Source: a virus. Taken from it: 64,000 bases of DNA. Under the pieces are notes generated by a model. That model was not told the origin of the DNA, made no database searches, and saw only the letters and a list, made by a program, of their open reading frames with translations. A program made the position numbers and the translations under genes. Within the stretch, counting starts at the first letter, position 1. The number at the start of each line of letters is the position of its first letter. The stretch covers positions 62,001 to 126,000 of IMG/VR virus record IMGVR_UViG_3300027733_001253, one strand, 5' to 3'. Shown one piece after another: positions 11,045 through 62,238 of the stretch.

Positions 11045-14000
11045 TTAGACCTGAGAATACTTTAATAATTTGTTAGTGTAAGTATTGGTTGTGCTTACTT
11101 TGTCAATGAGGTCATCAAATTTTGATTCCATCATTGAGTATAAATCCATTAATATAGCAGAACTGTTGTCTTTTGAAGATGTAGTATTGTTGTCTGCTAC
11201 TACAGAAGATAATGCACTTTTTGTTGCTCCACCATCTTGTTGCCCTTTGTCAATTGATATTTTGTCTCCTGGGTTTGGAAGTGGAACTACCGCTTCTCTA
11301 CCATGTAGTTCTACTGGATATCCTCCCGGAGGACCATTAAACACTCCACCGGTTTTAGCCATAAGAGTACCACCTTCACTTCTAGTAGCACTAAAATGCA
11401 TTGCATCTTTTTTACTTTGCCAATTACCACCCCATCCTAATCCAAGATTACCTGCTATTGTTCCAATATTTTCAGGCATATCGGTTATTAATTTACTTCC
11501 CATTGGATTAGTTTTTTCATTAATATCAAGCGCAGCACCTTGGGCGTGTGCGCTCATAACATCGGTGCCAGCTATCTTTCGATTATTGTACCCGCCCATA
11601 TCATTAATTTTATAACCTGCCATGTCAAGATGATTAATCAAATTTTGAAAATTGTCTGCAACATTTTTATTGACTTGTGCTGATGGACCACTTTTACTAG
11701 TGACGCTTTTTAATTCTGGTTTTGGTCCGCTGCCACCTCCTGAAGGATCACCTGCACCCATAGCTCCTGCACTACCACCTCCGCCTTTACCGCCAGCCAT
11801 TGCCATACTATAAGCTGGGCTTGAACCATACGTTTTAGCAAACCCTGCAGCAGTTGTTGATGCCGGATTTGATTTAACTTGTTGTTCTAATTTTGTTGTT
11901 TCATTAGCTAACCCTAATTTTCTTTTTTCTAAGTCTGCTAATTCTTTCTTCTTTGTTTCTATACTTTTACTAAAAAATCCTGTTTCGTTATCTTCGACTG
12001 ATTTTTTTGCAAGTCTGTATTTTTCTTTTGCTTCTTTTTCTTCTAAATATTTTGCAGATCCTTGAATAGCTAGTAACTCTCTTTTCTTTGGATCTTTTTC
12101 TTTATTCATTTGAATATTCAAATCCGTCACAGCTTGTTCTTTTAATTTAAGTTCTTGTTCAGCTAACTTAAATTTCTCATCTGCTTGCTTTTTAGCTTTT
12201 TCTGGATTTTCAGTTGACTCTTTGAGACTCTTTATTCTTTCTTCAACTGACTTTAATTCTTTTTGTTTATCAATCAAATTCTCGGCATCTCTTTGAGATT
12301 TGTCTTTTCCAGTTAATGTTTCTTTAAGAGTGTCTGATGGATCACCAATAAACTTCAAAACATATCTGCCAAACTGTTCAACATATTCAAAGAATTTCAT
12401 TATTGGACCTGATAAAGATTCTGGTAATTTTTTAATCATTTCTTTCATAATGTTTGGAAATTCCGTTGATAATCCCATTACATTTTTTTCAAATGCTATT
12501 TGTGTTTCTTTAGCTTTTTGAGCAGCGTCTGCTTGAGCCTTTGTAAATGGATCCGTAACTTCTCTTTGTTTGTCTAAGAACGCAGCAGCATCGAATGGTT
12601 TTCCAGCTTTTTTCGCATCAGCTTCTGCTTTTCTTAAACCTGCTATTTGCTGTTCAAATTTTTGTCTGTCAGCAAAGTTGTCTTGCGTATATCCAGCAAC
12701 TTCTCCTACTGTTCTAACTAAAAATGCATTTCCTTTATCTTGTTTTTCTAACCCTTGAGCAACCAGCATTTGCATTTTTACTTGGTCTTTTCCTCCACTA
12801 TCTATATACCTTAACAATTCCCCTTGGTTTTTCATCATTGCTACTTGACCTGAATCAAGAGCAGCACCTGATACTCTTTTTGCCAAAGCTGCTGCAAATT
12901 CCGGCATAGTTGCTTTCAAACCGCCAGCAAGTTCTTCAACAACTCCTAATTTTCCAGCTTGTTTAGTATCCCCGCGTTGCATTGCAATATTTTTAGCCGC
13001 ACTAACTTGTGCCATTGCTCTTATCGCATCTCTACCTTTTTCTTGATCTTTTCTAGATTGCCCGGTCAATGCTGCAACTCTATCTAGTTCTCGGATATAG
13101 TTAGCAGTACCTATTTTTAAATCAGTAGCAGATTTATTTTGTAGCGTTCCAAGTGAACGCTGTTGTTCCATGTACTTTAATGTATGTGCTGCCATTTCCT
13201 CATTGGTCAGACCCATCTGACGGAATACATCTCCTAGTCCAGATTTAATAACTGATCCAGCTACATCTGTGAATTTTTGTACACCTTCTACCGCAGAACT
13301 AGCAAATGTAGCTAAACTTGCGCTGCCTTCTACTAAAATTTTGTTAAATTTACCAAAGTCTTTTACAGACATTGATACTTGTCCAAGTTGTTTCCACAGT
13401 GTAGTCATTCCACCTGCACTAGTTAGTGATGCTGATGAAAGTTGAGTAAAGTCTTTATATAATTGATCATATATTGCTGCTTGCTTTGCTTGAAGTTCAG
13501 CATCACGTTTCATTTTTTTAGCTTGTGCTTCTTTCTCATAGCCTTCATATGCTACTACAGCACCTACTAGTAACATTATTACGCCAACTAATGCTCCTAT
13601 TGGTCCACCTAATATAATCATCTGTACCGCAGTCTTTGCAGCTTCTGCACCTAAACTAACCATACTAGAACCAGTAGATTCTAATGCACCCGCTAGTGCA
13701 TTCATTTCGGCTGATACTTGTGCAGCGGCTGCGGCATTAGCCCCTGCACCATCAAGTATAGCATTTTGATATGCTATTGTTCCTTCATATGCACCTTTGA
13801 TGCCTGCAACAAACAAATCAAAGGTGCCTTTGATTGCTAATTTACCTAAGTCTGCTCCTAATTTTAAAACATTTCCAGCCATTTGTCTTTGTACTTCGTC
13901 CATCTGCTTAAGTATATCAAGATATGCACGTTGAGCTAAAGTTAAATGATCAGTTTCTTTTGTTACTTTTCCATACTGGTCAATAGTTCTACCAATTGCA

Positions 14001-14470
14001 GCATATGCTTTGGTCATTGCTGCTTCGTTTCTTAACTCAGCTTTATATCTTTCTTTACCAGACTCGCTTAATTTTTTATAAGTACTATCGTTTTCTTCTA
14101 GTGCTTTGTTTAGTTGTTCTTCTGCTTTTTTACGCAGGTTATCTTCAGTTACTCTTTGTCTTTCAATTTTTCCTAATATTGCATTGCCTTCTTGGACATA
14201 TTTTATACTAGCGCCTAACTCATCAAAATTCCTTCTGACTCTAGCATCAATCTCTTGTTTTTCTTTTCTCTGTTGATTCCAATATGATTCTTCCAGCTTT
14301 CTTCTCTTGTTTAATTCGTCTTGAGCATCTTTTTCTTCTTGAGTTAATTCTCGTCTAGCAGTAGTTTCAGAATCAATGGTTTCAGTGGAATGATCAACAC
14401 CAGTAGCCATTCTTTCCAAGGCTTCAGCGATTCTGTCAAATCTCTCAAATAATTCTTGTTCGTTCATCAT
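11045..14470 (-). CDS. Tape measure-like protein with M15 peptidase domain
   Basis: An 1141-aa protein. Its N-terminal third is coiled coil (DAQDELNKRRKLEESYW and onward). A hydrophobic segment (about residues 283-308, MIILGGPIGALVGVIMLLVG) is followed by Ala/Lys-rich helices and a second charged coiled coil (about 745-870). At 962-1025 is a D-Ala-D-Ala carboxypeptidase-type M15 signature: SAHAQGAALDIN supplies SxHxxGxAxD and DAMHFS the last zinc His. After it comes a C-terminus typical of tape measures (GGYPVELHGREAVVPLPN). The family sets tail length and is ejected at infection; a built-in peptidase would help cut the cell wall. T4 gp29 is about half this length and has no such domain. It is divergent from the gp26/gp51 genes, which fits a tape measure beside its assembly helpers. 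It could instead be a hub-associated lysin. Confidence 0.75.
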   Translation of the reverse strand: MMNEQELFERFDRIAEALERMATGVDHSTETIDSETTARRELTQEEKDAQDELNKRRKLEESYWNQQRKEKQEIDARVRRNFDELGASIKYVQEGNAILGKIERQRVTEDNLRKKAEEQLNKALEENDSTYKKLSESGKERYKAELRNEAAMTKAYAAIGRTIDQYGKVTKETDHLTLAQRAYLDILKQMDEVQRQMAGNVLKLGADLGKLAIKGTFDLFVAGIKGAYEGTIAYQNAILDGAGANAAAAAQVSAEMNALAGALESTGSSMVSLGAEAAKTAVQMIILGGPIGALVGVIMLLVGAVVAYEGYEKEAQAKKMKRDAELQAKQAAIYDQLYKDFTQLSSASLTSAGGMTTLWKQLGQVSMSVKDFGKFNKILVEGSASLATFASSAVEGVQKFTDVAGSVIKSGLGDVFRQMGLTNEEMAAHTLKYMEQQRSLGTLQNKSATDLKIGTANYIRELDRVAALTGQSRKDQEKGRDAIRAMAQVSAAKNIAMQRGDTKQAGKLGVVEELAGGLKATMPEFAAALAKRVSGAALDSGQVAMMKNQGELLRYIDSGGKDQVKMQMLVAQGLEKQDKGNAFLVRTVGEVAGYTQDNFADRQKFEQQIAGLRKAEADAKKAGKPFDAAAFLDKQREVTDPFTKAQADAAQKAKETQIAFEKNVMGLSTEFPNIMKEMIKKLPESLSGPIMKFFEYVEQFGRYVLKFIGDPSDTLKETLTGKDKSQRDAENLIDKQKELKSVEERIKSLKESTENPEKAKKQADEKFKLAEQELKLKEQAVTDLNIQMNKEKDPKKRELLAIQGSAKYLEEKEAKEKYRLAKKSVEDNETGFFSKSIETKKKELADLEKRKLGLANETTKLEQQVKSNPASTTAAGFAKTYGSSPAYSMAMAGGKGGGGSAGAMGAGDPSGGGSGPKPELKSVTSKSGPSAQVNKNVADNFQNLINHLDMAGYKINDMGGYNNRKIAGTDVMSAHAQGAALDINEKTNPMGSKLITDMPENIGTIAGNLGLGWGGNWQSKKDAMHFSATRSEGGTLMAKTGGVFNGPPGGYPVELHGREAVVPLPNPGDKISIDKGQQDGGATKSALSSVVADNNTTSSKDNSSAILMDLYSMMESKFDDLIDKVSTTNTYTNKLLKYSQV

Positions 14471-14522: not shown

Positions 14523-14555
14523 GTTTTAAAAATACAATATTTTGGAGAATTATCA

Positions 14556-15377
14556 ATGAACAACCCCTTAAAACAGTATTTCCGCAGACCTGCATTGTAT
14601 CTTACACTACCTAGTAAAGGGCAATATTACCCTGAGGGATCCATCGACATGCCTGAAAGTGGTGAACTTCCTGTTTACCCCATGACTGCTATTGATGAAA
14701 TTACTAGTAAAACTCCAGACGCATTATTTAACGGTAGCGCGGTCGTTGAGATTATAAAAAGCTGTATTCCTGCAATCAAAGATCCATGGAAAATGCCAAA
14801 TATAGACATAGACGCTATATTGATTGCTATTCGTTCAGCAACTAATGGAAATGAATTAGAAATAAAATCAAATTGTCCAGAATGTGAAAATGAAGGATCC
14901 TACGCTATTAATCTAGGTGGTTTACTACAAAGCATTAAAAATGTTGATTATGGTAATACTTTTCCAATTGGTGATTTAATAATCAAATTTAAACCAATTA
15001 CATATAATGATAGTAACAAACTTAACTTAGCACAGTTTGAAGCACAAAGAGAAATTTCAGTTTTGCAAGAAATGCAAGATGATAATTTACGAAATACTAA
15101 ATCCGGCGAGATAATGAAAAAACTATCTACACTTAATATGAACTTGATATCTATGACTATAGAATCTATAAGTGTTCCTGGAGAAACAGTAACTGATCCT
15201 AAATTTATTATTGAATTCTTATCTTCATGTGATAGAAGTACATTTGAAAAGATTCGTACTACTATGGTAAATCTAAGATCCGATTCAAATATTAAACCAC
15301 AAAAAATACAATGTGTAAATTGCTCACATGAATACACACAAACATTAACATTAAATGTAACTGATTTTTTCGATTAA
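14556..15377 (+). CDS. gp26: Baseplate protein, T4 gp26-like (0-frame product)
   Basis: A 273-aa protein starting MNNPLKQYFRRPALYLTLPS, a start typical of the T4 baseplate gp26 family in marine phages, with PVYPMTAIDEITSKTPDALFNG after it. Two cysteine pairs (CPEC at residue 107 and CVNC at residue 253) could bind zinc. In T4, gp26 is needed for baseplate hub assembly. The ATG follows TTTGGAGAATTATCA, a good ribosome site. The last codons (GAT TTT TTC GAT TAA) contain a T TTT TTC slippery heptamer, and the -1 frame continues for 76 codons into a gp51-like sequence. So the gene probably makes both this product and a 348-residue fusion. Confidence 0.82.
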   Translation: MNNPLKQYFRRPALYLTLPSKGQYYPEGSIDMPESGELPVYPMTAIDEITSKTPDALFNGSAVVEIIKSCIPAIKDPWKMPNIDIDAILIAIRSATNGNELEIKSNCPECENEGSYAINLGGLLQSIKNVDYGNTFPIGDLIIKFKPITYNDSNKLNLAQFEAQREISVLQEMQDDNLRNTKSGEIMKKLSTLNMNLISMTIESISVPGETVTDPKFIIEFLSSCDRSTFEKIRTTMVNLRSDSNIKPQKIQCVNCSHEYTQTLTLNVTDFFD

Positions 15378-15441
15378 GGCTTCTTTCTCTGAACAACGAG
15401 CAGATACAAAAATTATTAGATGATCTGGAAAAAGAAGCCTT
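15365..15441 (+). promoter_or_regulatory. Probable programmed -1 frameshift signal
   Basis: A classic X_XXY_YYZ site, T_TTT_TTC, lies in the gp26 frame at 15365-15371. Four bases later an exact 11-bp stem begins: AAGGCTTCTTT (15376-15386) pairs with AAAGAAGCCTT (15431-15441) across a 44-base loop. The gp26 stop codon (15375-15377) overlaps the first stem bases. The -1 frame entered after the heptamer is open for 76 codons and encodes the gp51-like protein. Slippery sequence, spacer, stem and a conserved out-of-frame ORF without its own start signal all agree. Confidence 0.8.
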
Positions 15442-15601
15442 TAGTATAAAAGAATCTTCGTTAAAGTTTTCTTGGTACATGCGGGGAGGGGTAACATATG
15501 AAGATATACTTAACATGTCCCCGAATGAAAGAGAAGCCATTGGCAGGATAGTAGAAGATAATTTAGAAACTACTAAGAAAACACAGATGCCATTCTTCTA
15601 A
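15371..15601 (+). CDS. gp51: gp51-like tail, read by -1 frameshift from gp26
   Basis: The -1 frame after the slippery site encodes 76 residues: LNNEQIQKLLDDLEKEAF, then SWYMRGGVTYEDILNMSPNE and NLETTKKTQMPFF. The WYxRGG...MSxxER...NxETTKKT pattern is that of the small gp51 (baseplate hub assembly) proteins that follow gp26 in marine T4-like phages; this comparison is from memory. The only in-frame ATG (15479) lies inside the conserved block, would give 40 residues, and has no Shine-Dalgarno. The frame is closed upstream by TGA at 15362. Translation is therefore expected only as a C-terminal extension of gp26 (348 aa in total). Such 0/-1 fusion pairs are known for the tail assembly chaperones of lambda-, P2- and Mu-type phages. 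Confidence 0.75.
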   Translation, partial: RLRLLSLNNEQIQKLLDDLEKEAFSIKESSLKFSWYMRGGVTYEDILNMSPNEREAIGRIVEDNLETTKKTQMPFF

Positions 15602-15642: not shown

Positions 15643-15690
15643 AGACAAACTTCGTTTGTCTAAGACCTCACTTCGTTCGGTCTTATTTTT
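15643..15690 (+). terminator. Double hairpin terminator after gp26/gp51
   Basis: The first hairpin is AGACAAAC-TTC-GTTTGTCT (15643-15661). The second is AAGACC...GGTCTT (15662-15684), followed by ATTTTT. The second is the better plus-strand terminator. The first could also act on minus-strand transcripts arriving from the nuclease genes, although no T-run follows in that direction. Confidence 0.65.
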
Positions 15691-15714
15691 CTACAATTTT
15701 GTATTCTCAAAAAC

Positions 15715-34064: not shown

Positions 34065-37000
34065 ATGGCAACAAGAATTAGAACACTAGATTTTCTACCA
34101 GAAATATTCAAAACTACCACCAATGCTCAATTTTTAGCAGCAACATTGGACCAGCTAGTTGCACAGCCCAATATTGAAAGAATTGAGGGTTACATTGGTA
34201 GTAAATTTGGATATGGTGTTAATGCCAATGACTATTATGTTACTGAACCAACTAAAACTAGAACTGATTATCAATTAGATCCAGGTGTTGTTTTCTTAAA
34301 AGAAAATGATACTACTGCAAAAGATTTTATTAGTTATCCGGGTATAATAGATGCACTAACATTACGTGGCGGAATAACATATGACAATAGTAGATTGTTT
34401 AGTAGTCAGTTTTATTCATGGGATTCTTTTACTGATTTAGATAAAATAATAAACTATAATCAATATTACTGGCTGCCAACCGGACCCGAACGTGTCACAG
34501 TACAACCTAGCGCAGTATATACTCAAGCTACTTATGTAGTTGCATCAGAACCCGCTGATTATGTAATAACATCTGAATCATTAGCTGATGCAGAAGCTAA
34601 CCCAACACTAACCTTAATCCGTGGCGGAACTTATACATTTGTTGTTAATCAAAATACTAATTTTTGGATACAAGGCGCACCGGGTGTCACTGGCTATAGT
34701 CCAACACAAACTAATCTTCAAACCCGTGATGTATACGGAGTTACTAATAACGGGATATCAGATGGAACGATTACATTTAATGTTCCGCAAAAAAATGCAC
34801 TAGCTGATTATATTTTTTCTGGAGACAATACAGTAGGTGTTGTTTCTACACTTCCGTATAGTCAAGTTAACGGAGCATATGTAAATGATATAGGTGGCAT
34901 TGACGGAATAACATCATTAGATGGATTGACGCTAATGTTTTATAATACCGGCGAAAATGATTTAGGCACAGAAACTAATTTCTATCAAATCACACTAACT
35001 GGCGCAACCAATAATCCAGTCATATCATTGACACTAGGTGATGCTATTCCAAACGAACAGCAAATAATAGCATTATATGGCACTCAATGGATTAATAGAC
35101 TTTTCTATAGAAATAATTTAGGTTACATACAATTAGAACCATACAATAGTCCAATATTAGATACGTTGTATTATCAAGATGATACTATTTCTACTAGAGT
35201 AGGTATTATTAAACTAGTTGAGAATAATAGCACAAGTCAAATTAATGTTATAACAGACATATTAGGTAAAAAACAATATACTTCTCCAAATGGAGTAGTG
35301 TTCACTAACGGGTTAAAAGTTATATTCCAAGGAAATATTTTCCCTAACACGTATAACAATACAGAATACTATGTAGAAGGTGTTGGAACTAACATAGAGT
35401 TACTAACAGTAACTAATTTAGTATCACCTGGGTTATTTGCCTCTGGTGAATACACACCGTGGGACACAACCGCATGGGATGTTGGAAACTATGATTCTAG
35501 TTTATATGTTCCTATAAATCCAGATTACATAACCATTGCTAGAAATTCAGTTAATAGAAATGCATGGTCAAGAAGTAATCGTTGGTTTCACATAGATGTT
35601 ATTAATGCTACTGCTGCATACAACAACACTCCTGCACTAATAACAGAATATACTACTGATTCTAATAAAGCAAAAAGACCAATAATTGAATTTTATCCTA
35701 ACTTAAAATTATTTGATTCTGGTTCAGTAGGAAAAAGTCCGGTAGATTTTTTTGATACTAGAACAACTGACGCATTTACCTATGTAGCAGGACAGAGTGG
35801 ATACTATCCAGATGTAGCAGGTTGGACAACATACGATGCAATAATAGCACCTGTCTCTGGTCCGATTACTAGTATAACAGCAACTACAACGTATGCAGTA
35901 ACCAATCAAATTTTATTGAGTAGTACCGCTACGTTGCATGTGAATGATACTATAAGTTTTGGCGGCACTGTTTTTGGTGGAATAATATCCGGAACTACTT
36001 ATTATATTACTGATATTGCTAGTAATTTAATAACTGTATCTACTTTAAAAGGCGGAGAATCTGTTATTCTTACCACCGCTAGTGGTACAATGACTACTTC
36101 TATATACCCGTATTCTACCACTATAACTGTTCCTACAACCGGGGTGTCTGGGTTATTTGAAGTCAATCAATATATAACAGATACGATTGGTGTATTGCCT
36201 TCTATTACTTTAGTTAGTGATGTTTCAGTCGTGGGCTCAAACACAATTATAACGGTTACCTGGTATAGTCAATCTATAATAGATGGGACCTCAATTGCGT
36301 CTGTAGTTACAGCAGATACTCCATTAGATAACTATGCACTTTTTGACGGTGCTAGAGTAGTATTTTCAGTTGACACAACAGCAAACATAAGAAATAAAAT
36401 CTATATAGCAAGATTTTCAACTACTACACCATATGGTGTTCCAGTAATTACTTTATTTGAAGCTGAAGATGGATTAGTATTACCCGATGAGCAAACTGCT
36501 GTATATCGCGGATACAATAACATAGGTAAAGATTTTTATTTTGACGGGAACAATTGGTATGCAGGACAACAAAAGACAACTGTAAATCAACCACCAAAGT
36601 TTGATATATTTGATGAAAACGGTATAAGTTTTAGTGACCCTCTAGTATATACTAGTACGTCATTCACTGGTTCAACATTGTTTAGATATGGAATAGGTTC
36701 AGGAACTGATGATATATATTTAGGTTTCCCAATACGTTATAGTTCAATAGACAATATTGGGGATGTTAGTTTTGATGTTTCTTTAAATTTAGATACTTTT
36801 AATTACGTCAATGGCACTACGGCAATAACACAAAAAGTTAACACCGGATATGTATATAATTACACTGACCGTATTAACTATGTGAGATCATTAGGTTGGC
36901 AAACCGCAGTCTCTCCTAGTGTTCAATATCAAATATTTGAATTTGATTGGACGATAGTTGCTCCGGTGTACACATTTACATGTGATGTTTCTCCGATGAG

Positions 37001-40000
37001 TTCTACAAAAACTAATTGGCCTACTGTACAAGTGTACATTAATAATCGTTATATACCTAATACTGATTACACGGTAACAACTACCAATACTACTACCACA
37101 GTTAATATTCCTCTTAATTTTGATGCAGTAGAAACAGTAATACAAATTTTAGTATTAAGTGATCAAGTAAGTAATACAGCATATTATCAAATCCCTGATA
37201 ATTTGAATAACAATCCATTCAATGAAGATATAACTACTGCTAACATTGGCGACATTCGTGGACAATATCAAAGCATCTTCTTTAACAATCCAAATACAAC
37301 CGGTGAAGTATTTGGGGCAAATAATTATCGTGATTTAGGTAATTTAGTACCATGGGGTAATAGAATAATACAGAATAGTGCTTCGCTTGTATTGCCTGGG
37401 GTATTTTTACGAAACCAAACACATGATGTAATTGATGCACTATTATACAATAGCAGACAGTATATTACTTTTAAAAATCTATTAATTGATACAATTAATA
37501 ATTCTAGCTATAGCACAATGTTAACCCCTGCTCAAATGCTAGATAACGCAATCATTCAAATGAATGCGGCACGTAATAATGAACAACCGTTTTTCTGGAG
37601 TGACATGATTCCAGCAAAAGCACCATATGTTACTAATACATATTCTTTTGCTAATTCATTAGATACTAGTATATACCCATTGAGTCAAATATATAATTTT
37701 ACTACAGCAAATTATAATGGAGTTTTGGTATATCTTACTCGTAACGAAAAACAAACTCAATTAATTAAAGGAATTGATTATACTATTAGTATAGATAGTC
37801 CTACACTAACTGTCACTACTGATTTACAACCTAATGACAAAATTACAGTAAACGAATATAATCAAACATATGGTAGCTATGCACCAAATACTCCTACTAA
37901 ATTAGGATTATATCCTGCAACGGTACCTGCGGTAGTATTAGATACAGCATATAATCCAGAAACATATTTCATTGTAGGACATGACGGTTCTTTTACTAAA
38001 TTATATGGAAATTATAATCCTGGTACAGGTAAATTAGTTGACTTCAGAGACCAAGTGTTACTTGAATATGAAACCCGTGTTTATAATAATTTAAAATTAA
38101 GTGAAACAGTCCCGGCTGGTTCATATGAAGGTGTAATAATACCTGGATTCTTTAGAGAAACAGGTTATACTTACGATGAATTTTTACAAATATATAGTGA
38201 ATCTTTCTTAAATTGGGTAGGGCAAAATAGAATAGATTACAAGACACAGTTTTACAATAAGAATAATCAATTTAGTTATAACTATGTTGACAGTGGCAAC
38301 AAGATAAATCGCCAGCCAATTGAGCAAGGATATTTTAGAGGTTTATATCTGTACTATTACGATACTTCAACCCCAGATCAAACACCATGGGAAATGTTAG
38401 GCATTGCTAATAAACCAACATGGTGGGAAACTAGATATGGTGCAGCACCATACACTAGTGATAACTTAGTTCTTTGGGAAGATTTAGCTGAAGGATTAGT
38501 TTGGAATAACGGTAATTCTTATATAAAACCTAATTATGCTCGTCCTGATTTATTAAAAATTATCCCAGTTGATAGCAATGGAAATTTAGTATCACCACTA
38601 ATTTCTATTGTAGGGGCATATGATGAAAATGCATTTCAACGTGATTGGGTCGTAGGTGATGTAGGGCCCGCAGAGTTTAGCTACCGTAGAAGTAGTACTT
38701 GGCCATTTGATTTGATGCGTATACTAGCAGTAACTAAGCCAGCAGACTTCTTTAATTTAGGAGTAGATGTTGACAATTACAAATACAATGCTGAATTCAA
38801 TCAATTCTTAGTAAACAACATAAATCATTTGATTATAAGTGATATACCAATATATGGTTCAGGTACTCCTGCAACCAGTTATATCAACTGGATTGTTGAT
38901 TATGAAAAACAAGTTGGAGTTGATGCAACTACAAACATAACTACCTTGTTAAATAATTTAGATGTTCGTTTAGTATATCGTTTAGCTGGTTTTAGCGATA
39001 AGAATTTGTTAAAGTTCTATGTTGAAAAGAGTTCTGCCAACAGTAATAATAGTTCATTATTAATTCCTGATGAAAGCTATCAAGTATTATTATACGAAAA
39101 TCAACCGTTTGATAGAATAGTTTATAGTGGTGTAATAGTACAAGTTACTGATCGTGGATATAAAGTATTTGGAAATAGTCAGACTAATGCATACTTCAAA
39201 GTATTAGCACCTAAACCAAATCCAGCAGTTGAAACTATCACTGTTGACAACCTTACTGTAAGAGTAGCAACTGACTTCTATGATAGAACAGTAACAGTTC
39301 CATATGGAACTGAATTTTACACGGTTCAACAAGTATCACAATTTTTAGTTAGCTACGGCGAATATCTAATACAAAAAGGTGTTGTATTTGATGAGATAGA
39401 AAATGGTATTCCAATCAATTGGAATCAGATGATTGCTGAATTCTTATATTGGGCACAGACTGGATGGGCAGTTGGTAGTATAACTTCTATAAATCCTGCA
39501 GCAAAAATACTTTCAATAAACAAAGAAAGTTCTATTGTTCAACCATTAACATTGCAACAATTTAATTTTATATTAAATCAGAATCTATATCCTATATCAG
39601 GCACAGACATGTCTGTTGTTCGTGACGGTACTGCATTTACAGTAACAGCATTAAACGACGGTGATACTATATCATATGGTCAATTTAACATCAGCAATAT
39701 TGAACATGGCATCGTATTCAATAACTTAACATTATTCAATGATGTGATCTACAATTTAGTTACAGGTTTGCGTCAAAATCGTATCACTGTGCGTGGTACA
39801 AAAACTGCTGAATGGAACGGAACAGTAGATGCATATGGATTCATCCTTAATCAAGATAACATTCAAGAGTGGACCAGAGAAGTAAAATACACTCAGGGTT
39901 CAATTGTAAAATATAAAAATAGATATTGGACTGCTATAACTATTGTTCAAGCAAAAGAAACGTTTGATGAGCAAGAATGGTTGCAAACAGATTACGATCA

Positions 40001-43000
40001 AATACAAAAAGGATTATTACCTAATAGTCAAACTCGTTCATACGAAAGTACATTGTACTATGATGTGAATAGGGCTAATTTAGAAAATGATGCTGACCTA
40101 TTAAGTTTTAGTTTAATTGGATATCGCCCAAGAGATTATATGGCATTGGCTGATTTGACTGATATCACTCAAGTCAATGTTTATAAAAATATGATAAAAG
40201 ATAAAGGTACATTAAATGCAGCAAGTGCATTTAAAGGTGCAACACTAGCGCAAGGTGGCATTGATTATGAGTTATATGAAAATTGGGCTATCAAGTCAGG
40301 TGAGTTTGGAGGAGTATTAAATAATAACTTCATTCAATTCAAATTGAACCAAACGGAATTAACTGGTAACCCTAGTATTGTAGGATTAACTAATGGTATT
40401 GCTATAAATGGCGTACAACAGCAAGTGCCTATATATAGCGTATTCAATTATGGTCGTCCAATAACTGACGTTGATATATTACCTACTATAGCTAATACAT
40501 ACCCATCTGAGTTGTATCCTACGGCAGGATATGTTAATTACGATGATGTTAAAATGGCTAGTTACTATTACTCTGGATTGTCAACAGCACAAAACTCAGT
40601 TGGAACAACAATACCAATAACTGAGTTCTATGTACGTGATTATGCTTGGTTAGCTAACTATCTATCAGATTGGAAAGTATATACTCCAGCTAGTCTAGGT
40701 TCGGTGATTGCAGCACAAAATAATTTGAATGGCACAGTAACAATAAGATTTAATCAAGCACATAACTTAACAGTATATCAAGTTTTTGCAATTGTTAATT
40801 TTGATGTTGCAATTGATAATTATTATATCGTTGCAGCAGTGGTAGATACAAATAGAGTAATCATTAATCTCTCACTTGACCCTAACATAACTAGTTTAAC
40901 TGGACAAGGCGTTGGTTTCAGAATGCAGAATCAGCGCGTAGCTACTGCACCAGAAATCATAAACTTACCTTTATTAGACAATGAATTTAATAAATTAAAA
41001 GTATGGGTAGACACTAACAATGATGGTAGCTGGGCAGTTTATCGCAAGAGTTTAAACTATCAATATACCAATGAGATTACTGAATTAAGTAGCAATAATT
41101 TTGGTAGTGCAGTTGCATATACAGACACATTAGGATATTTAATTGGTGACAGTGGTGCTGGAACAGTTAATAGATATAGATATTATTCTGATTCAAACTC
41201 TTACAGTTCAATTCAAACTTTGACCCATGGTGCTTCATTTGGGTCTAACATAACATATATTGACGATTTGTTTGTGATTTCAGAACCAACTGGTTCGCCT
41301 AATGTTTACATTTATCAGTTAATAAACACCACTTTATCTAACACATTAGATTTATATCAAACTATTGCAGCACCAGTTGGTGTTACTACATGGGGAACTT
41401 CAACTGCATTGTCAGGTGATCAAATTTGGTTATATATTTCTGACATAGACAATAATTATGTTTATGTTTATCGCAAATCTGCATTAACAGATTTATACGA
41501 ATATTCTACTAGAATTACTGTAGCTGGATTAGTCAGTGGGGATACGTTTGGGTACTCTATTGCAACTGATTACTACGGTGATACCGTTGTAGTAGGTACT
41601 CCGTATAAAGATTATGATGTAAACACTGCTAACTATGGTTATACTTATGTGTTCTCTAGAACTGTTCAGAATACAATTTCAAGAACTAGCAATCAACCGT
41701 TTATACCAATAGTAATTCCTTTAGCCTGGACTCCAACTACGGTATCACAAACTGCAACTGCTACAGATAGCACAACTGATAGAATTACTGTCAGTAGTAG
41801 CGCAGGGTTTAGTGTAAACGATCCTGTAGTATTTTCTGGTACATTGATATCAGCAGGTGCAATAGCTGCGGATACGGTTTATTATGTTTATGATAAACCA
41901 ACAAGTACTACATTTAGAATTGCGTTGACTCGTGATGCAACTGCACCTATTGACTTAATAACCGCGTCTGGTAGTATGACAGTTACTGTACAAACTACTC
42001 CTTTGTTTGTGTCAGTTAATGGAACATCACTAGATGATAATACATATGCAGTAACTGGTTCTTCATTGTATGTTTATAGTTCACAATCACCTACAATAAA
42101 TGCAGGTGACTTAATTAATATCAGTGGTAGCAATTTTGTGTTAACACAAACACTAACTAACGAAGAAACACCAAGAGTTGGTGTAGAATTTGGTACTAGT
42201 GTAGATGTTAATAGATATGCAAATGAAATATTGATTGGTGCCCCGTACGAACTGAGTGATAAAAATTACGAAGGTGCAGTACATAGATATACTAATGCTG
42301 GTGAAAAATATGGAATGATTGTTGGTGATACTACTTGCACTATCACAGCACCTAGAAATATTTTAATTAATGGATTCAATGTAATATTGCCAATTGGTGA
42401 TGCTACTTCTGCTGCTACAAGTATAAACATTGTTTCAATACCAAATGTGTATGCAACTACACTTAATGGTAAATTAGTAATATCATTAGTTGATACTACA
42501 ATTGGAACAGCTGGAAACAAATTATCATTGTCAGTGGTTGATAACGCTACGTTAAGTGAAATTGGTATTACAATATATACACAAACACAAAAGATAATGT
42601 GTCCACATTTAGACGGTAGAACTCAATTTGGAACCGTAGTAAAATTTGATAAATCCTACAGTGGTTCGTTTATCGCAAGCGCTCCGGTTGGTGCACGTTA
42701 TACTTCAACTACATTTGATTTTACTGACGATGAATTAGACAATGATACAGTCTTTGACAATAATGCTACTCAGTGGATAGATGTATTCACTAATGCAGGC
42801 GCTGTTTATATGTTTGATTATTTGTCAGCATACAATGAAAACATAGATAATCCAGGCAACTTTGTTTATGCACAAAGTACTAATTCTAAGGACTTAGACT
42901 ATGGCACTCAACCATATTATGGAACAGCATTAGATTTTAATAGTAATCATGTAACAATTGGTACTCCTAATTTTGTTCCTAACACAGGATACAATGGGCA

Positions 43001-46000
43001 AGTTATTACTTATGTAAGTCAAAGTAGTACGCCAGATTGGGCTGTATACAGAAGTTCTGCCCCGGTCGTTGACGTTAATGGAATATTCAATATTCAATTG
43101 TTTAGTGCATTAACTAATAACACATTAGAAAATCTAGATTATATTGACCCATTGCAAGGAAAATTACTAGGAGCAGTAGCAGAGAATATCGATATCACAT
43201 CAAATAATGATCCTGCGGGATATAACAGCCCAGCAGATACACAAGGTGGTATCGTATGGTCAAGTGATAAAGTGGGGCAGTTGTGGTTCGATACTTCAAA
43301 TACTAGATTTATGAACTATCATCAAAATGATGTTTCATACAATAGCCAATGGTGGGGTCGTGTATTCCCAGGTAGTGATGTAGCTGTATATTCATGGATT
43401 AGCAGCAATGTACCTCCGTCACAGTATACAGGCCCAGGAGTCCCGTACAACATAGATAATTATTCAGTAGGCGGCGTAATAAATGCTGAAGGGTTGATTG
43501 CCCCTATCTATTATTTCTGGGCAAGAAATACAAATATAATATTTGAAAAATTAGGTAAAACATTATCTGATACCGTATTAGAATATTATATAATACAACC
43601 ACAAGCAACTGGTATAACTTATTTTGCACCATTGTTACCAAGTGTTTATGCATTATACAATGCATTTGCATATATTAACGCAAATGACACGGTTCTAAAT
43701 ATTGGTTATGCAACAGGATCCAACAACGATGTTCCACATAATCAATATAGTTTAATTCGTGCTAATTACGCTGATGACTTTTTATCAGGAACACCGGGAT
43801 CTGGTGCTGGATATCAGTATCGTGGTGCAGTTGGTATTGATCAACCAATTGGACTGTACAATAGAATGCTAGATAGTATGTGTGGTGTTGATAATGCAGG
43901 TGGTGTAGTACCGGACCCATTGTTGCCAAAAGCAGTACAAACCGGCGTACTATCTAGACCAAGACAAGGTTTCTTTTATGATAGATTTGGTGCGTTAAAG
44001 AATTACCTACAGTATGCTAATACGGTACTTGCTCAATTCCCAATCGCAGAAATTAGGAACCCAGTTTTCTTAACAGAAACCGGGGAAGCATTTGACACTA
44101 CACAATATTGGTATTATATAAATTGGTGGGCAACTGGGTACAATGATGCTACTAAAGCATCAATACAAGTTCCTCTATATGCAGATTTGTCCACATTAGA
44201 AGTAGCAGCAGGAACAATTGTAAAAGTAATATCTAATGGTTCTGGCAACGGAGAAACATACATATATGGCGCAGACGGATTGTGGACAAGAATAGGGTTA
44301 GATAACGGCACAATAGAATTTTCATCTGTACTATGGGATTATCCTAGTGCTAGATTAGGGTTTGGAGATAACTTCTTTGATACTACTCCTTTCGATTCAT
44401 ACCCGTCAACTGAAACACGTTACATAGTTCGTGCGTTAAATGAAGAAATCTATACAAATGAATTATTAATTTTTAGAAACAAAAGTTTAATATTATTATT
44501 TGAATATATTCAAAGTGAAACAATTGAAAGTCAAAATTACTTAACTTGGTTAAATAAAACATCATTTTTAGATGTTTCTCATACTATTCGTGAATTAGTT
44601 CCAATTGAAGTATTTCGCTCTGACAATCAATTATTTTTAGAAGGATACTTGAACGAAGTTAAGCCTTATCATGTAGTTATAAAAGAATTCTTATTCAAGT
44701 ATACCCGCACAGATGTATTTGAAGGCGACATTACAGACTTTGACTTACCGGCACAATGGAATGCAAACATTGGTGAGTTTGTCTCCCCTCAATTAGTTTA
44801 TAACGGAGGTGATAGTGTATATCAATATCCACCTACAAGTTCAATATGGGATAGTAATGCATATACAGAATGGTATAACAATTATGGATTAAGTATTGGC
44901 GTTTTCGTAGATGAAACTCAATCATACATTGGACAAAAAGATTTTCAAATTAGTGTATTAGATTCATATCTTTCATTGAATACATCATATTGTTATGTTG
45001 GCAATGTTAATGGATTCCCTATTAATGGAACTATAACAATTGGTGAAGAACAAATAGGCTATAGTGGAAAAGATTTGTTAAACAACCAATTGACTGGGTT
45101 GACAAGGGGAATGAATGGTACGACTATAACTCAACACTTGCCGGGTGAATATATTTTTATGGATCTTCCTCCTGTGATTATTCTTAACACAGGTAGAAAC
45201 TATATAAATCCTCCTCAGATTACTGCATACGTTGATACTACAATATACCCTGAACCAAGAGTCCCTGCTCAACTACAAGCTATAATGAGTTTAGGCACTG
45301 TTATTGGGGTTGAAGTAATTAATCCAGGTTCTGGATATGCTGTCTTGCCTAACATTGTAATTGATCCTGCTTATATTTTATCAATTGATAGTAGTCAAGT
45401 TAATGTATTAGACAATACCATTAATATAAACACAGCATATGATTTACAAACCGGTGATGTAATAGTATACTCAGTAGGTTCTAATTCAACAACAATAGAA
45501 GGATTAATTGAAGGGCAACAATACTATGTAAATCTGTTAGAAATTACTCCATCACCTGTATTTGCTCTCTACACTATGTACCAAGAAGCAATACAAGATC
45601 ATAATAGAGTAGTGTTTGGTAATAGTGGTACAGGAACTCAAAATTTTAGTATAGGTGCAATTGGGTATTGCATATTAAATTCAATGCCAATAAGAGAAAA
45701 TGTGATAACATTGAGATTTGATAGAACAACTTATACTAGTCAAGTAATTGATTGGGCGCCTGGGGGATTATATGGTTCTTTTTATGCAGGTGATTTACAC
45801 AATAGTAATCAAATATCATCATCGTCTATAAAATTATATGAAGAATATCCTTCTATAGATTCTATATTAGCAAGTGCGGCCGGCGCAACTTTTGAAATAC
45901 TAGATGCAGAAAATCAACAGACATTGACCTGGTCATCTAGAACTAGAAATACAGTACAAACATACGGATCAAGTTATTCTACGGTTGCGTATCAAAATGC

Positions 46001-49000
46001 AATAAGAATCAACCCTAGTTCCGGTGGAGCAGCAGTAGCTGGTGACATTGGTTCTACAATTGGTTTCTATATTGGAATGCCAGTTAAGTTTGTAGGTTCT
46101 ACAATTGGTACATCTCTAGTTGATAGTACAACTTACTACGTAAAATCATTGGTACAATTACCAAATGCAAATAGTACCTCTTCTTCTAATCTTGATATAG
46201 GATATAACTATGTAATTACTGTATTAGGCGACACTGATTGGAATAGTGTAGCCGATACAGTTGGTGTTACTTATGCTGTTGGTGATGTTGTTATATCAAA
46301 ATTTGTGGCTAGTGGTACAGGTACTGCTGCGTTATTGGAAGACACCGGCTTTACTATTTCTGATACAGTAGGTATTGATGGTGTACCAGGCGCAGTTTTT
46401 GTTCAGAATACAGCTACAATTGTTACAGCAGGGTTAATTTTATATGTTGGTCAATTAGTAAATCAAGCGATACTTACCATTAACTATACTGGATTAAGAA
46501 ATGCAGTTGCTACTACTAGGACAACAAATAATGTAACAGTCTTACTAACACCAACTGGGCAAAATGGTACAATTGGTTTTTATACAACAATGCCTTTATT
46601 CTTTGTGACTAATAGCGCAGGAAATAATGAAACATTTGGTAATATTGTAGAAAACAAAATATATTACGTATTGACAGTAATTGATTTAGAAACATTTACA
46701 ATGTCTGCTACCAATGAGTTACCGGTGATGTTTGAAGTTACTGCAACTTCAAGTAGCAACAATTCTATAACGTGCGAAACTACACAAGGATTAACCATAA
46801 ATGAACCTATCATATTCACAGGTACTACATTTGGTAATATAGTTGCAGGTGCAACTTACTATGTAAGAGAGAAATTTACAAATGGAACCTCTTTCTCTGT
46901 ATCAACTTCTGTAAACGGTGAAGCAGTAACACTAACTACCGCTACCGGTTCTTGTATGCTCAATAGTCAAGACCTTGCAGTACAGCTTACAGATGGATCT
47001 GGTTCAATGACATTGAATGTTAACTTGCCAGTAAGTCCTGGTCAAATTACAGGTCAACAATTTACCTTATATCAAACTTCACAACAATATAGTGGATTGT
47101 CAGGCACTATTTCTAATCTATTAACTAGAAGTATATCAGCTACTTTAGCAACCGTAAACAGAATTTGTATCTCTACTTTTAGCGGTGGACTAACTAACAT
47201 ATATAATGGGCTTAAATTTAATGTAGGGAACGACATAGGCGGATTAACTACGACCGGTGGACCATACACAGTAACAGGTACCGGCACTACCGCATTGACA
47301 GTAACAGATACTACAAGTAGTACAAATTGGTTAACTGCACCGTTGAGTTTAAATCCTAACTTAACTGATGTATTGTATGTTGGTATGCCAATATACTTTA
47401 CTGGTACATCAATAGGCGGAGTGTCATTGAATTTGGTATACTATGTGTTCTCTATAGACAGTAGTCCTCCGGCGGATACAGGTAGATTTACTATATCAGA
47501 AGATCAATTATTTGGATCAGTATATAATGTAACTACTGATAGCGGACTAATGACATTAAGTGGTGAAGGGTATATAACTGTAGGAACTAGTTTATTAAAT
47601 TCTACTCAAGCAGCAACAATTACTGATTCATCTACCCCAACGGCTGCTACTATTACAGTAGCAAATGGTTCAGCGTTCCCAAATGGAACAGCGGTTGTTC
47701 TTAGCAGTACAGGAACTCTTCCTGCGCCGTTCAATGTATATACTACTTACTATGTTGCTAATAAATCTGGAAACACATTTAATTTAGTATATGTAGTAGG
47801 TGGAACAACAATCAAAACTACTACCACTGGTTCCGGTACACACTATGTGTTAGAAACCCAAGTACAATTAGTACAAGAAGTCGTTACTGACCCTAACTTT
47901 GATGTAAGCTATATATTAGGTGGATATAGAATAGTAATTACTAGTGCAGGGCAAGGATATGCGGTTGACAATACAGTTACAATAGCAGGTTCTAGTATTG
48001 GTGGAATAAGTCCAGCAAACGATTTGACGTTGACCGCATTGACCATCGACTCAATTGGCGGAATCACATCAGCAGTATGTGTTGGTACCCCTGCAGGCGT
48101 GGTTGAACAATATTATCTTGAAGTAATATCATCAAATCAAGTTGCAGTATATTCTAATCCAGAATTGACTGCACCAGTTAGCGGACAAAATTTCTCATAT
48201 TCAGGAATAACATCTACTACTGCAACAGAAACTGTAGCAGCATCTGACAGAATTACAGTAACGAGTTCTGCTAGTTTCAATGTTAATGAACCAGTTGTAT
48301 TTACCGAAACAGTATTTGGTGGCATATCGTTAGGTCTTACATATTATATATATGATAAACCAACTTCAACTACAGTAAGAATATCTACATTACCTGCATT
48401 GTTAAGTTCATTGGTACAATTAACAGACGCAACCGGATCAATGACAATGGCTTCATCAGGTGACTATGCGTTGTTGCCGGAACCATTCTACTTTACTCCT
48501 AGTATAGTTAAATTTAACAATAGAGTATATCAATGTGTTGTTAGTAATAATGATAATGAATTTATTATTGGTAAATGGGAATTATTGTCACCTGATAATA
48601 GAAACTTAAATGCATTAGACAGAATTATAGGTTACTATCAACCTACTGTTAATATGCCAGGTAAAGACCTTGCTCAATTGGTAAATGGAATAACATATCC
48701 AAACAGTACTTATTTAGGCAATGCATTTGCACCGGCAGATGAATATACTTTAAATACAATATTAACAGATCAAACATTCTATCCAGTTGGACTTAATGGA
48801 CAGTCTATTGCAGTCAAAGATTCAACATATTTCATAGCATCAAACTCTAGTGATTATTCTTCAATTAATACAAGTACATTGTCTAATTGGACTATCAATA
48901 AGTTATCAAATACTCCAATCAATGTAACTTCTATAATATATACCGGCGGAACTTCAGGAAAATTTATTCTTTCTTCAAATAATACTGCAACACCTATATT

Positions 49001-52000
49001 AGTAAGTGATGATGGTATCAATTGGGACGCAACCGCATTATATAACTCAACTGATCCAATATTATTAGCTTCTTCTGGAGTAACATTAAATTGTGTAACA
49101 AATTCTAGTATTGCTTCAGCTACTGTAGCAGTTGGAAGTAGTATTATTACTTCAGTAACACAACCTAATGACAATGTACCTTATACATGGGATGAAACAT
49201 TTACATTTACTAATGGATTTACTAATGAATTTAATGGTGTTGCGTATGTAAGTACTGCAGGATTCACAGGCTTTATTGCAGTTGGGTTAGGACAAGCAGC
49301 ATCTAGCGGAACAGTTGCTCCTACAAACTATGGAATAATATACTCTAGTGCTGATGGATTTACATGGACGCAAGTTCCATTTACTGCTACTAGTTTTTCA
49401 TTAAACAGCATCGCGGGTAATAGTCAAACTATTGTGATAGTAGGTGACAATGGAGTTATATACACTAGTTTTAATGGTACAACATGGTTCCCACAAACTT
49501 CACCAGTAGCTACCAATTTAAATAATGTCACATGGAGTACATACTTAAGTACATTTATAGCAGTGGGTGATAACGGTGTTATACTTACTGCTCCAACAAA
49601 TGGTATTACTTGGACACAACAAACATCTAATGTTACAGAAAATCTACAGAGTAGTGTTTCTGACAATGTTTCAGGATTATTAATTGTAATAGGATATAAT
49701 AATACTATGTTACGTAGTACTAATAGTACTACTTGGACGCTTGATAATTATGTTAATACTCCTGCCCCAATCTATAATGTGCAGGGTGATTCATTTACTG
49801 AAGGGTACGGTCCTGAAGAATTAGTTGCAGGAGTAGTTTCTGATAACATTACTATGATTGTAAATACTAGACCGGGAACAAACTGGGATCAAACAATATA
49901 TCAAAATATTGGTTATAATGTAGTATCATTAGAAATAGCACCAACGTCAGGCACACAGACTCAATATAGCTTTATTAATGCAGTAAATGTTCCAATTCAA
50001 ATTAGTGTGTTTATGATAGATTATACCACTGAACTAAGTACCACAATGATATTAGGTTCTGATTATACAATAGATTGGATAAACAAGATTGTAATTCTAT
50101 CTAATCCTATAACGTATGTATCATCTACTATACATGATAATTTGAGAATAGATGTTTATGAAGTAGGTAATGGAGATCAATTAGTAAAATCAAATACTGA
50201 AGCTGATCCTATTAAGTATAACGAAGTTACCGGGTTTAGTGAAATAGATGTAAATGCAAATTATAGTGCAGGTATCTATCAAGGTTCTGGTTTAATAAAA
50301 CCAACAACTTCTCCCGTCACCGCGTATGCGTTATCAACAAACGGAATTAATAATACTATACAGTGTGATAGTGTAGATGATTTTGTTCTAAACGGTGCTA
50401 TAACTTTTAGTGGGGCTGTGTTTGGAAATATAGTTGAAGATCAAACGTACTATGTAAAATCTATTGGCTATACAACTAATAGAATTACAATATCAGATAC
50501 TTATAATTCATCTACTGGTACAGCCGGAACAATATTCTTCTTATCTACTGCATCTGGGCTTATGGATGCTATTATACAAACTGGATTAGGAGCAGCATGG
50601 AGTCCACCAGCAGTATATCATAATGGTAATTTATTAGTATTAGGTTATACTGCTACTGTATTAAGAACCAAATCTTCAACTAATACCATAACAACAATTA
50701 CTACAAGCGGACTAATTGTAAATACTCCTATAGTTTTTAGTGAGACAATATTTGGTGGAATTGTTCATCATCAAACATATTATATTAAATCAATATATGA
50801 TTCTAATGAATTTACTATTTCTGAAACTGTTAGTGGACCTGTATTCCAATTAACAAATGCAACAGGCAGCGCAGAGTTTATATCAAATGATTATTCAATT
50901 GGAATTTCTACCAATGGTATTACTGCTGCAATAATTTTTGCAGCTAATTATGATAATACAGTAGATTACTTAGTATACTCATTCTTGGGGCAGACAGTTC
51001 CTACACAATATGGGTATACTTTACCACAAACACAATTATTCATTGGTGACGGTTCTACTGATTCTTTCGCATTAGATTATTTTGTAGGGGAAGATAACCC
51101 AACTAACGCTATTGTAGAAATCAACGGACTAAGACAATCATTGTCAACATATACTATTAGTGCAGATAATGATTCGATATTGTTTGATACTCCACCCAAT
51201 GTCAATGACAATATATCTGTTACGTCATATAATTTAACAGAACGTCAATATTTTAGTACTTCTGAACTTACATCAAGCTATACCGTAGCTCCTATAATAA
51301 ATGTTAATAACGTCATAACCCCTACTACAGCTATTATTGGTATTACTAGTACACAAGCCGGGTCAGCTACGGTTGTCAATGCAGGTTCATTTACTACAAC
51401 TAAACAATATATAATTGTCTCATTAGGTACTACTACAAATTGGAATACTGTAGCAGGAACAACCGGAGTAACATATGCAGTAGGTAGCTTGTTTACCGCT
51501 GCTACTGTGGGGTCTGGTAATGGTACAGCAAAATTAGCAAATTCATTAATAAGTACGGCAGATCCTTCACTTAATTTAACTGTTGGACAATCTATACAAT
51601 TTAAAACTGCTAATATAAATGCTGGATCATTTATATCAAGTACCCAATATTGCATAACTAGTTTAGGTAATACAGATTGGCAATCAATTGCATCTAGCTA
51701 CAATTGGTTATCAGGATATCCAGTAGTTGGAGGCATATTTACCGCTAACGCAATAGGTTCAGGTAGTGGAACTGCTGTGCTAACTACAATAAATGGCATC
51801 AGTACTATTGGAACTAACTATACCGTTAGTGCAATAACAACTAATCCTAATGCGGCATATGCTTTCACAATACAAGACGAATTAAGTGCGTCACCTACAG
51901 TTACGACCGGGGCAGTCGCTACTGTTTTAACAGGTTATGCAGGTGGCTTTAGTGCAGTAACAGTGACTACTAGCATAACACCAAACTTTATATTAAATTC

Positions 52001-61039: not shown

Positions 61040-62238
61040 AAAATATTGATCAAAATGTTATTTGTTTGATGCCATGGATACATACACACATATGGCCTAA
61101 CGGCGATGCGTTTCCATGTTGCATGAGTGATACTAAAGAAGTATTTGGGAATGTTCATAAAGAATCTCTTAATGATTTGATGAACAATACCAACTATAAA
61201 ACCATACGAAAACAAATGCTTAATGGAGAAAAACCTACAGCATGTTCACGGTGTTATGAGTTAGAAGATACCGCAGACAGTTGGACGTTGCGTAAAAACA
61301 GTTTACAAAGTTTTAAAAATCATTTACCTTACTTAACTGAAACTAAAGAAGATGGTAGCATTGATGACTTTAAAATGAGATACTTAGATATTAGATTCAG
61401 TAATTTATGCAACATGAAATGCAGGACATGCGGTCCTAGCTTGAGTAGCAGTTGGTATGATGATCAAGTAAAATTGCACCCAGAATCAGTAACAAAGAAA
61501 TTCATTGATTTAAAATCTAATCCTAACTTTATGAATGATTTAATGCCGCATTTAGATACGATAGAAGAAGTGTATTTTGCCGGAGGCGAAGCATTGATAA
61601 CTCCCCAACATTATGAGATACTAGATTACTGGTTGTCAAAAGGTCTTACACATATCAAGTTAAGATATACAACTAACTTTAGTAATTTCCGTTACAAGGA
61701 CAAGTCTATACTTGATTATTGGAAAAAGTTCAAAGATGTTCGTGTCGCTGCTAGTTTAGATACGCACGGCAAGATAGCTGAATATGCTAGGAAAGGAACT
61801 AACTGGGATGACATAGTACTAAACAGACAACAAATGATAATGCTTTGTCCAGATGTTTATTTCGAAATCACCCCTACTGTAGGTATCTTTAGTGTGCATA
61901 GTTTGTTTGAGTTTCATAAATCATGGGTAGAAGAAGGATTATTGGACATCAATAACATACGAATAAATATTTTGACACATCCAAGATACTTTTCAATTAC
62001 TATTTTACCAGAAGATGAGAAAGAAAAAATTAGACAACTGTATGAAGAATATTGTGATTGGTTAGTTAAGAATAATGCAAAAGACAACATCATACATGAT
62101 GTAAAAGGAATAGTAAGTTATATGGATAGTGTAGATCATACTAATCTGTTATCTGAATTTAAAAAACAAATAACAGTCATTGATGAAGTTAGAAATGAAA
62201 AATTTATAGAAATTTATCCGGAATTAAAAATATTATGA
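61036..62238 (+). CDS. Radical SAM protein 2 with N-terminal Cys domain
   Basis: A 400-aa protein. The N-terminal Cys set is CLMPWIHTHIWPNGDAFPCC followed by CSRCYELE, probably an auxiliary Fe-S site. The radical SAM core begins MRYLDIRFSNLCNMKCRTCG, with the CxxxCxxC motif at about residues 124-131, and YFAGGEALITPQHYEIL carries GGE. It is a paralogue of the genes on either side and conforms best to the twitch-type radical SAM family. Substrate unknown. The end of the gene lies in a 20-base tandem duplication that separates it from the next start codon. Confidence 0.85.
   Translation: MKNIDQNVICLMPWIHTHIWPNGDAFPCCMSDTKEVFGNVHKESLNDLMNNTNYKTIRKQMLNGEKPTACSRCYELEDTADSWTLRKNSLQSFKNHLPYLTETKEDGSIDDFKMRYLDIRFSNLCNMKCRTCGPSLSSSWYDDQVKLHPESVTKKFIDLKSNPNFMNDLMPHLDTIEEVYFAGGEALITPQHYEILDYWLSKGLTHIKLRYTTNFSNFRYKDKSILDYWKKFKDVRVAASLDTHGKIAEYARKGTNWDDIVLNRQQMIMLCPDVYFEITPTVGIFSVHSLFEFHKSWVEEGLLDINNIRINILTHPRYFSITILPEDEKEKIRQLYEEYCDWLVKNNAKDNIIHDVKGIVSYMDSVDHTNLLSEFKKQITVIDEVRNEKFIEIYPELKIL

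Follow-up and report, generated by a model that had tools for sequence, protein, structure and literature searches.

We propose that a jumbo T4-related phage produces two tail assembly chaperones from a single gene, a short form of 273 aa (TAC-N) and a long form of 348 aa (TAC-NC), by hairpin-stimulated −1 programmed ribosomal frameshifting at U_UUU_UUC, a reading to which we assign a probability of about 0.9 on comparative-genomic evidence. The evidence is that distant phages share the signal, the geometry and the reading frame and that T4-type phages use two paralogues instead; it supports the frameshift as far as comparisons of genomes permit. From it we infer the actual ribosome shift, the ratio of the two products and their role as tail assembly chaperones.

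Ribosomes would slip by −1 on U_UUU_UUC with the aid of a hairpin that lies a few nucleotides further on. Among tetramer classes in E. coli, U_UU.Y ranks second in its tendency to shift (PMC4066793). The non-shifted majority would yield the gp26-like short form, while a minority would continue into the long form with its extra helical C-terminal domain. In the lambda model (PMC5009743) the two forms divide the work: the short one coats the tape measure protein, the long one recruits tail tube subunits. On the pattern of lambda G/GT, the jumbo phage would use many copies of the short form to coat its tape measure protein and a few of the long form to recruit its tail tube subunits.

A gp26-like gene that ends in a slippery site

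The window analysed here is a stretch of 64,000 nucleotides (positions 62,001 to 126,000 of IMG/VR record IMGVR_UViG_3300027733_001253), from a genome with T4-like surroundings that include a major head protein, a protease, a portal and homologues of gp46 and gp47. The 0-frame ORF of 273 aa (14556-15377, plus strand) is preceded by a Shine-Dalgarno-like GGAG, read directly at 14544-14547 on the same strand, 8 nt 5' of its ATG. Its product matches PF12322 (T4_baseplate, the gp26/gp51 family) with E=6.4e-21 and 75.5 bits against a curated cut-off of 24.5, as well as phrog_150 'baseplate hub' (E=3.3e-21), and PF12322 was also matched by 35 of 35 aligned relatives; we regard the gene as a candidate for the short, gpG-like chaperone. 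The protein carries two invariant CxxC pairs (C107/C110 and C253/C256), which suggests a zinc site in the jumbo-phage chaperone. Matches to its AF2 model (pLDDT 87) were limited to gp26-type viral models, with no PDB entry at E<=0.001.

The final codons of the gene, GAT TTT TTC GAT TAA, place a slippery T_TTT_TTC heptamer (15365-15371, plus strand) in register with frame 0, with TTT in the P-site and TTC in the A-site, and the 0-frame stop TAA (15375-15377) follows in an FF-x-stop geometry whose spacing is kept in relatives. The −1 frame (CGA TTA AGG ... TTC TAA) is open from the heptamer to the TAA at 15599-15601. The resulting extension of 76 codons plus stop (15371-15601, plus strand) is the predicted C-terminal, gpT-like domain of the long chaperone, and translation gives a fusion of 348 aa. 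An earlier note on this DNA had described the heptamer at the end of the gp26 frame and the 76 open codons and had predicted a 348-aa fusion beside the 273-aa product; we found the heptamer, the open codons and the predicted lengths to be correct. The heptamer word by itself says little, since 18 TTTTTTC sites occur in the window when 20 are expected. Within the window's ORFs of at least 100 codons, in-frame TTTTTTC is found at 15365-15371 and in one antisense frame, and solely at 15365-15371 does the −1 frame run on beyond the 0-frame stop.

The same note had held that the −1 ORF has no usable start codon of its own, and this was likewise the case: the earliest ATG, GTG or TTG in the −1 frame 3' of the heptamer is the ATG at 15479, residue 39 counted from the FF codons, direct reading revealed no Shine-Dalgarno-like sequence upstream of it, and no start is conserved in relatives.

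Directly 3' of the fusion gene, at 15646-15695 on the plus strand, lie two inverted repeats with TTCG loops, ACAAACTTCGTTTGT and GACCTCACTTCGTTCGGTC, which may terminate its transcript; they were absent from the output of a terminator scan. Elsewhere in the window an unbroken ORF of 6459 aa (34065-53444, plus strand) stands out by its unusual length.

On the other side, a divergent gene of 1141 aa with a C-terminal Peptidase_M15 domain occupies 11045-14470 on the minus strand. Its length and a weak match to RaK2 ORF088, which is annotated as tape-measure-like, make it the candidate tape measure gene. The earlier claim that the chaperone gene adjoins the tape measure thus stands as far as adjacency is concerned; the neighbour is encoded on the other strand and is a presumptive tape measure gene. 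In 79 of 80 relatives the longest open frame immediately upstream is likewise a minus-strand one. In cyanophage S-PM2 the gene directly downstream of the chaperone pair encodes 1167 aa and matches the phrog_9570 tape measure, and no similarity was found between this tape-measure-like gene and the 1141-aa gene of the window.

Conservation of the heptamer and of the −1 frame

The earlier note had proposed an alignment of junctions from related phages; in this alignment the heptamer, the frame relation and a downstream stem are conserved while the flanking bases vary. With the −1 ORF as query, 80 loci of 55-100% identity were retrieved from IMG/VR, and 54 of these differ from one another over the 237-nt junction. 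TTTTTTC and the FF-x-stop spacing were present in all of them (80/80 loci, 54/54 distinct), and the −1 frame was open for 78 codons in every jumbo-type relative found with the −1 ORF. When the −1 ORF of S-PM2 was the query, TTTTTTC was present in 80 of 80 cyanophage-type contigs, at an identical distance from the stop in 77, and the heptamer was invariant over 135 distinct cyanophage-type junctions. A blastn search of the phage set with the junction as query gave no match.

Because loci should not be picked by the junction itself, the search was also run with gp26 sequence only, namely residues 1-205 of S-PM2 gp26, and we added six loci retrieved by the window's gp26-like protein (P0002). In all 59 distinct loci obtained in this way TTTTTTC lies exactly 10 nt 5' of the stop, and the median open length is 60 codons in the −1 frame versus 4 in the +1 frame. 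Among named genomes, TTTTTTC followed by an open −1 frame occurs in Atu_ph07, Phosso, 121Q, RaK2 and PA5oct; it is also present in the cyanophages S-PM2 and P-SSM2 and in DLP6, Aeh1 and KVP40. The slip site of HTVC008M and phiM12 is T_TTT_TTT (T7) rather than T_TTT_TTC. As judged from these counts, made on sequences that share kinship and are not phylogenetically independent, the combination of heptamer and frame arrangement is far beyond chance.

The position of the 0-frame stop varies in some lineages. A TAA follows the heptamer immediately in HTVC008M, whereas the stop lies farther from the start of the heptamer in RaK2 (25 nt), PA5oct (16-19 nt) and three further loci (L134, 31 nt; L165, 31 nt; L168, 13 nt), so a stop near the slip site is not essential.

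That the break falls exactly at a homopolymer, and that T4 gp51 is continuous, could be taken to mean that a sequencing or assembly error has split what is truly one uninterrupted ORF. We consider this vanishingly improbable: the identical T6C recurs across many assemblies, at 135 distinct junctions of the cyanophage type and 54 of the jumbo type, and it is also present in the finished genomes of S-PM2, P-SSM2, KVP40, Aeh1, 121Q, RaK2 and PA5oct.

The protein itself is conserved from the FF codons onwards, well 5' of any start codon held in common. Over codons 4-37, which precede the first ATG that the relatives share, mean entropy at the three codon positions of the −1 frame is 1.03/0.65/1.39, and a minimum of variation at position 2 with a maximum at position 3 is, by this statistic, the mark of protein coding in the −1 frame upstream of the start codons. 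Both observations speak against the rival view, in which the −1 ORF would be a small gene in its own right, gp51, with coupling or reinitiation bringing ribosomes to a start codon within it. Annotators have indeed given the −1 ORF start codons in S-PM2 (57 aa), Atu_ph07, Phosso and 121Q, and in some phages an ATG or GTG occurs a few codons into the −1 frame. However, no start codon position is common to all phages, 17 of the 59 loci found with gp26 have no start within the first 14 codons, and the first start in the window is the late ATG already described, which has no Shine-Dalgarno sequence. Moreover, T4 gp51 is a full-length protein and not a short C-terminal piece, and independent initiation would leave an invariant heptamer and hairpin unexplained. 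A separate gene is therefore improbable in our estimation.

A further route to the identical fusion would be transcriptional slippage on the T6 run, in which insertions or deletions in the mRNA restore the frame without any ribosomal shift. There is a homopolymer at the junction, and it is extended to T7 in HTVC008M and phiM12. A run of six is short for transcriptional slippage, a mechanism better served by longer runs, yet the second Phe codon of the FF pair is TTC, its last base C, in 54 of 54 jumbo-type junctions even though TTT is the commoner Phe codon: elsewhere in these genes TTC accounts for 111 of 529 Phe codons (21%), and TTT TTC does not occur at any of the 14 other FF pairs. In addition, a hairpin at a fixed distance of a few nucleotides downstream is a hallmark of ribosomal frameshifting. 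We therefore judge slippage of the polymerase to be improbable too. On this evidence assembly error, an independent start and transcriptional slippage were all three rejected, and ribosomal frameshifting is retained as the preferred reading.

A conserved hairpin with a mobile 3' arm

In the window an exact stem of 11 bp begins 4 nt 3' of the heptamer, just as the earlier note had it. The 5' arm, AAGGCTTCTTT (15376-15386, plus strand), contains the GGCTTCT that is kept in relatives, and pairs exactly with AAAGAAGCCTT (15431-15441, plus strand), the 3' arm of the window's lineage. The RNA spanning 15372-15445 folds at −16.9 kcal/mol, modestly better than shuffled sequences (z −2.45), and against synonymous shuffles a stem of the window type reaches p about 0.045 in one locus (L008) and 0.02 in another with the same arrangement (L011).

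A hairpin 3' of the heptamer is present in nearly all jumbo-phage relatives. In most of them GGCUUCU can pair with AGAAGCU from the 7th nucleotide 3' of the heptamer and a second 7-bp stem follows, so that the common form is a hairpin of 14 bp with a 2-nt bulge about 6 nt 3' of the heptamer. The 3' arm is AGAAGCU in most lineages and GAGCC in four loci (L041, L061, L062 and L067); in the lineage of the window (L008, L010 and L011) it is AAAGAAGCC, about 20 nt further 3'. A conserved 5' arm combined with a moved 3' arm indicates that the stem in the window is a rebuilt version of a conserved element. The stem that the earlier note singled out is thus real, and a downstream stem is conserved, but in that exact form it is specific to one lineage, most relatives using a nearer 3' arm.

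To evaluate the folding, we used synonymous shuffles in which the protein and the codon pool are held constant. The mean minimum free energy of the jumbo set is −14.0 kcal/mol versus −5.9 (sd 0.4) in the shuffles, a difference of about 20 sd, and that of the cyanophage set is −9.1 versus −3.9 (sd 0.19). Taken one by one, 43 of the 54 jumbo junctions fold better than 95% of the synonymous shuffles made from each, and a scan along the jumbo locus places the folding minimum at +10 against a background near −4. RNAalifold found no consensus structure over 50 junctions, which we attribute to the change of register of the 3' arm among lineages. In its place, covariation was scored on a named structure with synonymous-codon shuffles: 49 cells are altered on both sides of the pairing versus 25 in the shuffles, the covariation score was reached by 0 of 500, and shifting the pairing partner of this structure by one column reduces the paired fraction from 78% to 54%.

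A Shine-Dalgarno-like GGAGG or GAGGG is often found 6-20 nt 5' of the heptamer in cyanophage-type junctions (GGAGGG in L207, for example), with a match of at least 4 nt in 71 of 88 non-redundant junctions. By analogy with dnaX it is a possible second stimulator; a conserved LEGL peptide may equally be the source of this sequence.

gp51 as a fusion and the two routes to a chaperone pair

T4 gp26 (208 aa) and T4 gp51 (249 aa) both match PF12322 along the whole of its length and are thus paralogues. In the alignment, T4 gp26 terminates where the 0-frame products terminate (EFFELL, with the FF codons TTC TTT), whereas T4 gp51, aligned with the fusion, continues unbroken into the extension region, which makes gp51 the counterpart of the whole frameshift fusion. 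The earlier identification of the −1 ORF with gp51 therefore has to be revised, since T4 gp51 matches the entire fusion. Both T4 proteins are listed as hub-assembly chaperones, gp51 being required yet absent from the particle (PMC3004832).

The −1 domain of cyanophages and the C-terminus of T4 gp51 are homologous (phrog_634, E=1.9e-27; hhalign, E=9e-5). The jumbo −1 domain alone gave no significant hhalign match to either the cyanophage domain or T4 gp51; by way of bridging phages the jumbo extension reached E=7.9e-5 with a probability of 61%, and the extension of the window's clade is tied to the others by its position and an ILNMxPxER-like motif. An AF2 model of the −1 domain is helical (pLDDT 86). 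A fold search with it in BFVD returned no match, and an NCBIfam search gave nothing useful.

Cyanophage and vibriophage gp51 have been reported to be about 200 N-terminal residues short, and gp51 to be missing in Aeh1 (PMC3037559). That gp51 corresponds to the fusion accounts for the shortfall of about 200 residues. The annotated 'gp51' of S-PM2 (L095:1191-1364; 57 aa) matches phrog_634, and from these alignments the cyanophage gp51 of that length is a truncated piece of the predicted frameshift fusion, whose annotation should join it to gp26. In Aeh1 gp26 is followed by a −1 ORF that lacks an annotation and extends about 58 codons beyond TTTTTTC; gp51 appears to be present there in this form, which would account for its reported absence.

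In each of the 12 records examined that carry a single PF12322 gene (the genome of the window and 11 others), a slippery heptamer is followed by an open −1 frame, while T4, 44RR and RB43, a small sample of three picked by name, each have two PF12322 genes and no heptamer. Going by gene content, a phage seems to obtain a short/long pair either from two paralogues or from a single gene with a frameshift. We lean slightly towards the view that frameshifting is ancestral across the T4 superfamily (here cyanophages, pelagiphages, vibriophages, Aeh1, and rhizobial and jumbo phages) and that the T4-type duplication is derived, the 3' arms of the hairpin having been rebuilt several times around a fixed heptamer.

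The putative system resembles lambda gpG/gpGT, and P2 E/E+E' and their relatives, in that a gene ends in a slippery site at which a −1 shift adds a C-terminal domain, in that short and long forms share an N-terminus, and in that a candidate tape measure gene is nearby, directly downstream in S-PM2 and divergent in the window. It differs in that no sequence relation to the lambda proteins was found, the clade of the window having PF12322 with two CxxC pairs and a U_UUU_UUC site, and in that the tape-measure candidate of jumbo phages is on the opposite strand. With T4 the relation is one of homology, gp26 being the counterpart of the 0-frame product and gp51 that of the fusion, but T4 has two paralogous genes on opposite strands and no heptamer, in contrast to one gene with a predicted frameshift. 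Phage Adele (Vandenendeviridae/Andersonviridae) is similar by description: the TAC-N gene of this myovirus has a −1 shift at a poly-T close to its end, the −1 frame is uninterrupted throughout the clade and a tape measure gene comes next, but the motif is GTTTTT and the phage family is another one (PMC12846349).

A 2016 review described the G-T frameshift as conserved in long-tailed phages 'except T4' (PMC5009743). PMC10885494 and PMC12846349 both cite a 2022 paper by Vladimirov, Gautam and Davidson (Virology 566:9-15) for the identification of the chaperone genes of T4-like phages; its title argues for a mechanism other than frameshifting. According to PMC10885494 they reported that some T4-like phages have a short gene and a fused long gene, and PMC12846349 credits them with poly-T frameshift signals in T4-like chaperone genes. 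As cited there, part of the picture was thus already published and the novelty of our findings is partial. The suggestion of the earlier note that gp26/gp51 are the chaperones of the T4 lineage is supported, but by these citations it dates from 2022, and its statement that no frameshift had been described for this pair was probably too strong in view of the poly-T signals. In the open literature searched, which does not include Vladimirov et al. itself, we came across no account of the jumbo clade, of the hairpin or of the split between one-gene and two-gene phages.

On a practical matter, the results provide a rule for annotation: where a phage has one PF12322 gene, T_TTT_TTC should be sought and the join annotated, by which many annotations would be corrected. 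More generally, with the predicted frameshift the rule that holds for other long-tailed phages would extend to the T4 superfamily and, if frameshifting is indeed ancestral, the textbook exception of T4 would represent a derived state.
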